Shown one piece after another: positions 56,737 to 60,049 of a stretch of 64,000 bases of DNA (position 1 is its first letter; each line of letters starts with the position of its first letter). Source of the stretch: Chloroflexota bacterium (GTDB lineage: Bacteria > Chloroflexota > UBA11872). Made by a program: the position numbers and the translations under genes. Where the stretch lies: positions 62,001 through 126,000 of the forward strand of contig JAJECS010000020.1 in assembly GCA_022821905.1 (NCBI GenBank). The letters run 5' to 3'. Under the pieces are notes generated by a model. The model was not told the origin of the DNA. It searched no databases and saw nothing but the letters and a program-made list of their open reading frames with translations.

Positions 56737-58302
56737 TCAGCCGTCCGCGCTGGTGATTTGAAACGAGTAGAGCTGCGCGTCGTGCATGTAAAACCGCAGG
56801 CGGCGGTGCGGGATGAAGGTCGAATACACCGTTCCCGAGTCGGTCCCCTCCGGCAGGTGCAGGGTCGCGTCGCCGCCCCAGGTCACGACGTGGGAAATCG
56901 AGTCTCCCGTGAACACGTCGCAGTCGTCCGCGGACCGACCGTCCATCACCCGGTAGGTCACGTCCGACGCCTCCACCTTGATATAGCCCTCCGGCCCGCA
57001 GGACGCATTGATCACCAGCCGGTCGCCCGGCGCGATGAATGCCTCCGTTAGCAGCATGCCCACGTGCTTGTCGTTCGTCCCGACCGACACGAAGCCATGC
57101 CGCCGCAGCTTGCCCAGACCTAGCCCATAGGGTTGGCGCTGCTTCGCGGAGACGGCGCCGGCGCCTCCGTAGTAGAACCACGACTCATCGCCCACGTCCA
57201 CCATGTGCGGCGCCGCCACGACCAGCTCGTCATACGAGCCGGGGCCTCCGCCGGGGATCCAGGTGTGGGTCGGACGCAGGCGGTCCCAGTTGCGCGCGTC
57301 CCGGCTGAAGGCCAACTGCGGATGCAGCTTGTACTCCGTCATGGCGAGCACGCCCAGGAACGCCACCCAGTGGCTCCCCAGGCGGTAGGGCCGCATGCTG
57401 TAGAACGAGTCGTCCAGGTTGTCCAGCTCCGGGTCCGGCGCCAGCGCCAGCCGCGGCTCGCTCCAGTGGTGGAAGTCCCGGCTCTGCGACTGGAAGATGC
57501 GCCGCATCCCGCGCCGGTTCGACAGGCCATGCGCCGGGTCCGTGGTCGAGCCGCCGGCGATGGCCTTCTCCACCAGTCCGACCCGCGGCCGCGGCGCCAT
57601 CTCCATCCACGGGTGCCGCGTCAGGATGTTGTACGTGCGCGTCTCGGGGTCGAAGAAGGGATAGATGCTGTCGCCTTGCTTCGCGCCCAGGCCCTCGAAC
57701 ATCGGCGGCTCGTCGTAGGTCGTCCAGTGAATGCTGTCGGCCGAATAGGCCCGCCGCACGTTCGCCCCAGGCAGCTCGTCGGCCACCCGAAAGCCCGGCG
57801 GCCCGATTTCGTAGATCGCCTTGTACCGGCGCGCCGGATCCGTCTCCAGCGGGTCGTCCAGCGGCGCCAGTCCCCACACGTTGCCGTGCGTGCGGTCGCC
57901 CAGCACGATGTTGGTGTCGTGCCCGTCCTCGTGCACGATCCCCATCGGCGGCTTCACCCAGGTATAGCCGTCCTCCGAGCGCGCGTAGCAGACGCGAAAG
58001 CGGGAGATGTCGTAGTCGATCAGGGTGCCGCCGGTGCGGGCGGCCTTCTCCTGGTCGATGTCAAAGTCGGAGTAGAGGAGGTGAAAGACGCCGTCGTCGT
58101 CACGCCAGACCTTGTAGTCGTCGGCGTGCATGTTGACGTGGTGCTCCCACGGTTTGTCCTGGACCAGGATCGGGTTGCCCTCGTACATCTCCGGCGTATG
58201 CACCGTCCGGGAGATGTTCTGAATCTCCTCGATCATCCCGGTGTCGAAGAAGTACTGCGGCGTGTCGCGGATGTGCAGTTCGGTCGAGTCGAGGTCAGCC
58301 AT
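56737..58302 (-). CDS. Five-bladed β-propeller glycosidase-like protein, paralogue A
   Basis: 521 residues from ATG 58302. The blade-like repeats are typical of the GH32/43/68/130 superfamily: YKVWRDDDGVFHLLYSDF, VCYARSEDGYTWVKPPMG, RRAYSADSIHWTTYDEPPMF, SQSRDFHHWSEPRLALAPDP and LAFSRDARNWDRLRPTH. A C-terminal β-sandwich (LLTEAFIAPGDRLVINASCG, YSTFIPHRRLRFYMHDAQLY) resembles GH32C-type domains. No signal peptide; no CAZy family can be assigned. The gene 60174-61739 encodes a protein of the same length and about 90% identity. Likely first gene of an operon with 56107-56712 and the dehydratase. Confidence 0.82.
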   Translation of the reverse strand: MADLDSTELHIRDTPQYFFDTGMIEEIQNISRTVHTPEMYEGNPILVQDKPWEHHVNMHADDYKVWRDDDGVFHLLYSDFDIDQEKAARTGGTLIDYDISRFRVCYARSEDGYTWVKPPMGIVHEDGHDTNIVLGDRTHGNVWGLAPLDDPLETDPARRYKAIYEIGPPGFRVADELPGANVRRAYSADSIHWTTYDEPPMFEGLGAKQGDSIYPFFDPETRTYNILTRHPWMEMAPRPRVGLVEKAIAGGSTTDPAHGLSNRRGMRRIFQSQSRDFHHWSEPRLALAPDPELDNLDDSFYSMRPYRLGSHWVAFLGVLAMTEYKLHPQLAFSRDARNWDRLRPTHTWIPGGGPGSYDELVVAAPHMVDVGDESWFYYGGAGAVSAKQRQPYGLGLGKLRRHGFVSVGTNDKHVGMLLTEAFIAPGDRLVINASCGPEGYIKVEASDVTYRVMDGRSADDCDVFTGDSISHVVTWGGDATLHLPEGTDSGTVYSTFIPHRRLRFYMHDAQLYSFQITSADG

Positions 58303-58501: not shown

Positions 58502-60049
58502 ATGCCCGATTACCGATCACGCGTACCCAGCTATACGTTCCCAACCGCGCTCAACGCCCAGGAAGCGGCGCTCGCCACAAATCCGCTCATGCACCGGTTG
58601 CAGGCGTCGCGGGCGGCGCTCGCGGACGACCCGTACCGCCCGATCTATCATTATGTCAACCCGGAGTCCACGCTCAACGATCCCAACGGCCTCTGCTTCT
58701 GGCGGGGCAACTGGCACCTCTTCTATCAGGCCTATCCGCCGGAAGATCCGCGTCAACATTGGGGCCACGCCGTGTCAACGGACCTCGTGCATTGGCGCGA
58801 CCTCCCCTACTGCATCTACCCCGACCCGGAAGAGAAGTGCTTCTCCGGCTCGACCCTTGTCGAGGACGACCGGGTCATCGCCATGTACTTCGGCACGCTG
58901 GTCGGCAACATGGTCGCCACGTCGAGCGATCCGCTGCTGCTCAACTGGACGAAAACTACCAACCGGGCGGTGATTCCGATTGCCGCGCCCGACGGCTCGC
59001 CGCTGCCATACACCGTCTACGACCCGTGCATCTGGAAGAAGGACGGCGTCTACTACTCCCTCTCCGGTTGGGCCAGACCCGGCGGCCCCGCGGGCAAGCC
59101 GATCCGCGCGAACTTCCTGTTTCGCTCCACCGACTTGGAGCATTGGGAATACCTGCACCCGTTCGTCGAGGACGACCGCTACACGTTGGTCGGCGACGAC
59201 GGCTCGGTGCCCTATTTCTGGCCGATCGGCGACCGGCACATCCTGCTCTTCGCCAGCCACATGACCGGCGCTCAATATTTGCTGGGGGACTACGACACGG
59301 CGCGGGACAAGTTCGTGGCCACGCACGGTGGACGATTCAACTTCGGCGCCATGCGGCCCGCCGGCATCCACGCGCCCTCCGCCACGCCGGACGGCCGCGG
59401 CGGTGTCATCGCCATCTTCAACATGAACGAGGGCAAGCCAACCGAGGGTTGGAACCAAATCATGTCGCTGCCGCGGCGCCTGACGGTCGACGGTGACGAC
59501 CTATTCATGGAACCGGTGCCGGCGCTCGCGGCGCTGCGGGACGCTCATGCCCGCGTGGATACGACCCGGCTGCCCGCCAACACGGAGCACGTGATCGAGT
59601 CGGTGCACGGCCGGGCGCTCGAGCTCGTGGCCGTGCTCGATTCCCAGGACGCACCCATGGTCGAGCTAAACGTCCTGCGCTCGCCGGGCAAGGAAGAGTT
59701 CACGCGCATCGCCTTCTTCAAGAATCGCGGTCATTTCGAACGCGTCTTGGGCACCGGGCGGCACTTGAGCCTGGTCACCATCGACACGTCGTACGCGTCG
59801 GAGGCGGCGGATGTCCTGTCACGCGCTCCGGAAGCGGCCCCGGTCAATGTCGAGCCGGACGAGCCCGTCGAGCTGCGAGTCTTCATTGACCACAGCGTCG
59901 TCGAGGTGTTCGTGAACTCCAGGCAATGCGCGGCGGTTCGCGTCTATCCGGAGCGGGCCGACAGCGTTGGGGTATCGCTGCGAGCGCAAGGGGCCGACGC
60001 CCTGCTCAAATCGCTCGACGCGTGGACCATGCGCTCGATCTGGCATTGA
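58502..60049 (+). CDS. GH32-family-like protein (fructanase/invertase fold) lacking the EC acid/base motif
   Basis: 515 residues. The propeller carries the nucleophile motif LNDPNG with Asp60, HWGHAVSTDLVHW, FSGSTLVEDD, the stabiliser motif as VYDPCIW with Asp174 (usually RDP), and later GMRPAGIHAPS-like MRPAGIHAPSATPDGRGG and WNQIMSLPRRLTVDG. Where GH32 enzymes read ECPD before F-PLGDK, this protein has SVPYFWPIGDR, so Ser235 replaces the acid/base Glu. The C-terminal GH32C sandwich is intact (LRVFIDHSVVEVFVNSR). No signal peptide. It is divergent from paralogue A and convergent with paralogue B. Confidence 0.88.
   Translation: MPDYRSRVPSYTFPTALNAQEAALATNPLMHRLQASRAALADDPYRPIYHYVNPESTLNDPNGLCFWRGNWHLFYQAYPPEDPRQHWGHAVSTDLVHWRDLPYCIYPDPEEKCFSGSTLVEDDRVIAMYFGTLVGNMVATSSDPLLLNWTKTTNRAVIPIAAPDGSPLPYTVYDPCIWKKDGVYYSLSGWARPGGPAGKPIRANFLFRSTDLEHWEYLHPFVEDDRYTLVGDDGSVPYFWPIGDRHILLFASHMTGAQYLLGDYDTARDKFVATHGGRFNFGAMRPAGIHAPSATPDGRGGVIAIFNMNEGKPTEGWNQIMSLPRRLTVDGDDLFMEPVPALAALRDAHARVDTTRLPANTEHVIESVHGRALELVAVLDSQDAPMVELNVLRSPGKEEFTRIAFFKNRGHFERVLGTGRHLSLVTIDTSYASEAADVLSRAPEAAPVNVEPDEPVELRVFIDHSVVEVFVNSRQCAAVRVYPERADSVGVSLRAQGADALLKSLDAWTMRSIWH

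Follow-up and report, generated by a model that had tools for sequence, protein, structure and literature searches.

Here we describe a GH32-like protein, P0001, encoded in a window of 64,000 nucleotides, which is the whole stretch of DNA that was analysed (Table 1). The open reading frame is intact from its ATG, and both GH32 domains exceed the curated cut-offs of Pfam, which found GH32 domains only and no GH117 membership by sequence. An AlphaFold2 model built from an input of 22 sequences (mean pLDDT 88) has the five-bladed propeller and beta-sandwich of the GH32 fold, and all 50 PDB matches that Foldseek listed for this model are GH32 enzymes, with best TM-scores of 0.76 and 0.79. Against the NCBIfam model for sucrose-6-phosphate hydrolase, TIGR01322, the protein scored 151.5 bits, under the cut-off of 356.4. 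No signal peptide is evident, so P0001 is probably intracellular.

The gene is transcribed alone. Both flanking genes, P0002 and P0003, gave no Pfam match; they belong to a family with 7-8 copies per genome in the host's own genus and mostly 12-40 copies in the sister genus. A weak GH32-profile match of this family hints at a propeller, and the predicted structure of P0003 had a model confidence of 42, too low to use. ABC transporter genes (oligopeptide/nickel type) also lie near P0001, as does a gene of the enolase superfamily; the latter is close to the galactonate dehydratases but falls under the cut-off.

Table 1. Features of P0001, its neighbours and the remnants of its orthologue in congeneric genomes
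Feature	Location	Strand	Basis or remark
P0001, GH32-like, 515 aa, five-bladed beta-propeller and C-terminal beta-sandwich	58502..60049	+	ORF, AlphaFold2, Foldseek
PF00251 domain, residues 50-338	58649..59515	+	Pfam, E 2e-39
PF08244 domain, residues 344-508	59531..60025	+	Pfam, E 7e-19
Asp60, nucleophile position (NDPNG)	58679..58681	+	alignment; 84/84 variants
Tyr173, replacing Arg of the RDP motif	59018..59020	+	Arg in 93/93 canonical, 0/84 variants
Asp174, transition-state stabiliser position	59021..59023	+	alignment; 81/84 variants
Asp233, second residue upstream of the lost Glu; candidate for the acid or for a partner to His253	59198..59200	+	84/84 variants, 1% of canonical
Ser235, in place of the acid/base Glu	59204..59206	+	alignments
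His253, after strand 245-252; candidate catalytic acid	59258..59260	+	84/84 variants, 5% of canonical
His290, replacing Tyr (YASK/YAPQ)	59369..59371	+	canonical: Tyr in 50/58; core subfamily: His in 50/50
P0002, unclassified neighbour	56737..58302	-	divergent from P0001
P0003, 90% identical to P0002	60174..61739	-	convergent with P0001
P0001-orthologue remnant	G002:C10:117356-117974		congeneric genome
P0001-orthologue remnant	G003:C41:287244-287408		congeneric genome; between P0002- and P0003-like genes

Two of the catalytic motifs that define GH32 enzymes are altered in P0001. The nucleophile Asp of NDPNG is present as Asp60. The RDP motif, which supplies the stabiliser Asp and the Arg before it, reads VYDP, so that Asp174 is kept and the Arg has become Tyr. 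At the place of the acid/base Glu of EC(P) stands Ser235: when the protein is aligned to solved structures by phmmer, S235-V236-P237-Y238 is paired with E-C-P-D in both Thermotoga maritima BfrA (where the Glu is Glu190) and the sucrose-6-phosphate hydrolase 7vco, and the neighbouring P.F.P.GD motif stays in register. The original prediction, that a Ser (SVPY for ECPD) has taken the place of the acid/base Glu in a protein that retains its nucleophile Asp60 and stabiliser Asp174, is borne out by these alignments, in which both Asp residues also line up with their GH32 counterparts. Alignment with GH32 homologues, the check proposed at that time, left Ser235 in the same register in pairwise, multiple and hold-out alignments; a misalignment of the acid/base motif was rejected, since the flanking conserved residues fix the register. 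A one-off pseudogene or sequencing error was likewise rejected, as congeners at 92-94% identity carry the same Ser and the dN/dS is 0.15. Our analysis adds to that first description the loss of the RDP Arg and of a neighbouring Tyr, a newly invariant His253, and the finding that a whole clade is affected. Because two of the defining catalytic features fail, P0001 is GH32-like by fold and domains, yet it is not an ordinary member of GH32.

The spread of these changes was surveyed by PF00251 searches of Chloroflexota, Planctomycetota and Verrucomicrobiota, together with the genomes holding orthologues, from which 134 distinct proteins were aligned. In this first set, 58 proteins had both the Glu and the RDP Arg and the others neither, and every readable Glu-less protein had an Asp two residues earlier, with the exception of L162. 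A hold-out set from two further groups, added after the rule had been formulated, contained 35 canonical and 10 variant proteins, all of which obeyed the Glu/Arg rule. The totals are thus 93 proteins with both residues and 84 with neither (n = 177), outside of which stand L162, with the Arg and an Asp for the Glu, and two proteins unreadable at the motif columns. All 84 variants have Ala, Ser, Gly or Met in place of the Glu, mostly Ala, and in place of the Arg mostly an aromatic residue or His. Their pairwise identity has a median of 39% and a minimum of 22%. Nevertheless, the nucleophile Asp is kept in all 84 and the stabiliser Asp in 81, and the -1 pocket (N59, Q76, S115, W317 (core)) is mostly kept across phyla.

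When all alignment columns were filtered for residues found in at least 97% of the variants and in less than 20% of the canonical proteins, only Asp233 (84/84 against 1%) and His253 (84/84 against 5%) passed. Tyr185, uniform in the first 74 variants, was dropped as a third invariant on account of the hold-out set. The Tyr of YASK falls at position 290 by our own mapping. In this column 50 of 58 canonical proteins have Tyr, whereas the P0001 subfamily has His in all of its 50 members and the other variants mostly have Cys, Phe or Gly. Gln293 is replaced as well. As read from the alignments, then, the acid/base environment (Glu, Arg, Tyr) has changed together while both Asp residues stayed. No other Glu near the acid/base site is universally conserved among the aligned members of the variant clade. 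The substitute acid had been suggested to be Asp232 or Asp233; the latter is invariant and remains a candidate, but position 232 may be Asp, Glu or Ser, and both Asp232 and Glu223 were rejected as a clade-wide replacement because neither is invariant.

In a maximum-likelihood tree of 62 variant and canonical proteins, built without the motif columns, the variants make up one side of a single branch (ultrafast bootstrap 100, SH-aLRT 99), and they again form a single clade in a second tree made from another sample of 84 proteins. The variant clade is monophyletic and spread over several phyla. The co-occurring changes therefore represent one evolutionary event, and so their co-occurrence by itself cannot prove that they are functionally coupled. 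What the clade does document is that the combined loss of Glu and Arg has been kept through a radiation reaching down to 22% identity. Furthermore, no clade member was recognisable among the solved structures searched, no NCBIfam model reached its cut-off on members of three variant subclades, and we found no report of the clade in the open-licence literature, which is weak evidence of absence.

Among closer relatives, the Glu is replaced by Ala, Ser or Gly in all 45 aligned orthologues (at least 54% identity), and the motif around it reads GDD[GA][ASG][CV]PYF. Ala is the usual residue, with Ser found in the host's own genus and in L045. Orthologues at 54-94% identity were found, among relatives and in a species-level genome collection, in records of Chloroflexota, Armatimonadota, Verrucomicrobiota/Lentisphaerae and Planctomycetota, and also of Spirochaetales, Gemmatimonadota, Latescibacterota and SAR324. 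The nearest named records with orthologues are Chloroflexota bins of the sponge-metagenome style (L036, L037), and for this reason we call the host sponge-associated. Within the genus, P0001 is under purifying selection (dN/dS about 0.15 from three congeners). In two of six congeneric genomes, the orthologue has been reduced to remnants, and the gene is therefore dispensable there, though constrained where it is kept.

In the AlphaFold2 model, strands 61-67 and 175-180 begin immediately after Asp60 and Asp174, respectively. Strand 235-242 starts with Ser235, and its hairpin partner, strand 245-252, is followed at once by His253. The hairpin register sets His253 opposite residue 234, between 233 and 235; in a regular hairpin, its side chain would face the side of residue 234 and not that of 235. 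From these strand positions, we infer that Asp233 and His253 lie at the rim of the blade where the Glu used to be. The clade would thus carry an invariant His and Asp at the acid site, as in a GH117-type dyad, with their location taken from strand positions only.

The acid/base Glu has been described as part of the catalytic triad of clan GH-J. In canonical enzymes it is contacted by the RDP Arg and the YASK Tyr, and the Arg, described as completely conserved in the clan, has been proposed to modulate the pKa of the Glu (PMC3360783). Because the Arg and the Tyr both contact the Glu, a joint loss of all three would be explained. We favour, with a probability of roughly 55%, the view that P0001 is an active glycosidase with a relocated proton donor (Asp233 and/or His253) and a substrate that is not standard sucrose or fructan. 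In this scheme the Glu and its surroundings, namely the RDP Arg and the YAPQ Tyr, would have been replaced as a unit, with Asp60 retained as the nucleophile and Asp174 as the stabiliser, and proton donation would have passed to Asp233, to His253 or to both. The protein would be an exo-type glycosidase, probably intracellular, and its substrate, a furanoside or a sugar like it, would not be standard sucrose or fructan. The loss of an Arg that is constant across clan GH-J makes ordinary sucrose or fructan seem less likely as a substrate. For GH117, QM/MM supports a His/Asp dyad in the role of general acid, and a His that shares its proton with an Asp has also been proposed as the general acid of GH3 NagZ and of GH156 (PMC11574756). 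Against this view speak the additional loss of the stabiliser Asp in L096, L112 and L123, the side to which His253 would point in a regular hairpin, and the dispensability of the gene in two congeneric genomes.

Of the three options offered at the outset (another acid, a binding protein, an activated substrate), our comparisons favour the first and disfavour the other two. The strongest alternative is a pseudoenzyme, a sugar sensor or binding protein that has kept the propeller and the sugar pocket and lost catalysis. That all 84 members have a residue unable to donate a proton in place of the Glu, that the partner Arg of RDP has gone and that one subclade has also lost the stabiliser Asp would all fit such a protein. 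However, a binding protein has no evident need for a nucleophile Asp kept in 84 of 84 members, beside a stabiliser kept in 81, nor for the Asp and the His that have newly become invariant at the site of the lost Glu. Across phyla, the fold has been maintained, as has the larger part of the -1 pocket; we consider this alternative unlikely. The enzyme might instead dispense with a classical acid altogether, using a substrate with a good leaving group or an external base in the manner of myrosinases. The empty Glu position is consistent with this idea, and the sulfatase neighbours of some orthologues and the sugar-acid dehydratase-like gene near P0001 suggest unusual substrates. Yet it leaves the invariance of Asp233 and His253 unexplained, and the varied hosts and gene contexts do not indicate a single activated substrate, which makes it rather improbable.

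A change of reaction, to that of a lyase, phosphorylase or transferase working through Asp60/Asp174 and the His, would account for the replacement of the whole acid/base environment, including an Arg constant in GH-J, and some propeller lyases do use His-based chemistry; however, the two catalytic Asp residues are conserved where GH32 has them, which favours a glycosidase scheme, and we regard this change as improbable. Finally, P0001 matches GH32 in overall homology and in fold, as would be expected of an ordinary invertase or fructanase in which another Glu serves as acid/base and the alignment is locally wrong. This is hardly credible given the uninterrupted [CV]P.F.P.G motif that fixes the register and the want of any universally conserved alternative Glu near the site, and the alignments contradict it.

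Compared with the GH32 beta-fructofuranosidases and sucrose-6-phosphate hydrolases T. maritima BfrA (1uyp), the Frischella enzyme (7vco) and A. thaliana cwINV1 (2ac1), P0001 shares the two-domain architecture with its propeller, the nucleophile and stabiliser Asp motifs and several residues of the -1 subsite. It differs from them in having Asp233 and His253 and in lacking the acid/base Glu, the RDP Arg and the YASK/YAPQ Tyr. The GH43 and GH62 propeller glycosidases carry their three catalytic residues (two Asp and one Glu) at equivalent blades, but they keep the acid Glu, which the P0001 clade has lost, and have another domain architecture. The fold of GH117, too, is the general propeller seen in P0001. 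With the GH117 3,6-anhydro-L-galactosidases (His302/Asp320 as acid dyad, Asp90 as base), P0001 may share a His and Asp acid mechanism; GH117 enzymes are inverting, no family-level sequence relationship to P0001 was found, and the two His/Asp pairs are likened by mechanism, not by position. Myrosinases, plant members of GH1, are a natural case of acid/base Glu loss in an otherwise intact retaining glycosidase. They differ from the P0001 clade in fold, in having Gln as the replacement and in their use of external ascorbate, whereas the clade has a new invariant Asp and His.

The variants account for nearly half of the GH32-like proteins sampled and, without Glu and Arg, are yet strongly conserved. 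If they are active, the clade would illustrate how a retaining glycosidase may come to exchange its general acid in the course of evolution. It may even constitute a separate GH family within clan GH-J, widespread in bacteria, with an Asp/His acid and a non-fructan glycan as substrate, whose members have been misannotated as fructan hydrolases; we put this forward tentatively, at somewhat less than even odds. The annotation of the clade as fructan-digesting enzymes is probably wrong, and PF00251-based assignment as sucrose or fructan hydrolase is unsafe for its members. In the host genome, the three two-domain GH32-like proteins (L001, L002, L003) are all variants, which leaves the idea of the host as a fructan user unfounded; the two other GH32 matches in this genome are weak, and these proteins, of 310 and 352 aa, are propeller-like with a single domain.

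The gene neighbourhoods of orthologues elsewhere suggest glycan breakdown, possibly of sulfated glycans. They include homologous sulfatases (L038, L044), a polysaccharide lyase of the chondroitin-lyase type (L048), GH5 and GDSL proteins (L040) and a TonB receptor (L047), and the comparison of gene contexts revealed no single partner gene common to all orthologues. Additionally, distant relatives of P0002 and P0003 adjoin GH32 variants in L050 and L039.

The survey also brought to light several proteins with other departures from the GH32 motifs. L096, L112 and L123 form a variant subclade that reads AGAP or GGAP for RDP, without the stabiliser Asp, and retains the nucleophile Asp, Asp233 and His253. 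In two canonical-type proteins from one genome of the Planctomycetota search, L144 and L147, the nucleophile Asp is replaced by Glu (NEPHG), with RDP and the acid/base Glu kept. No surveyed protein other than L162 combines the RDP Arg with an Asp for the acid/base Glu (YDCPD); L162 is a natural counterpart of the E190D change in the 1w2t sequence. At L035 (G099:C201:6357-9353), a variant adjoins a canonical GH32 protein in one genome, which suggests that the two types have different roles.
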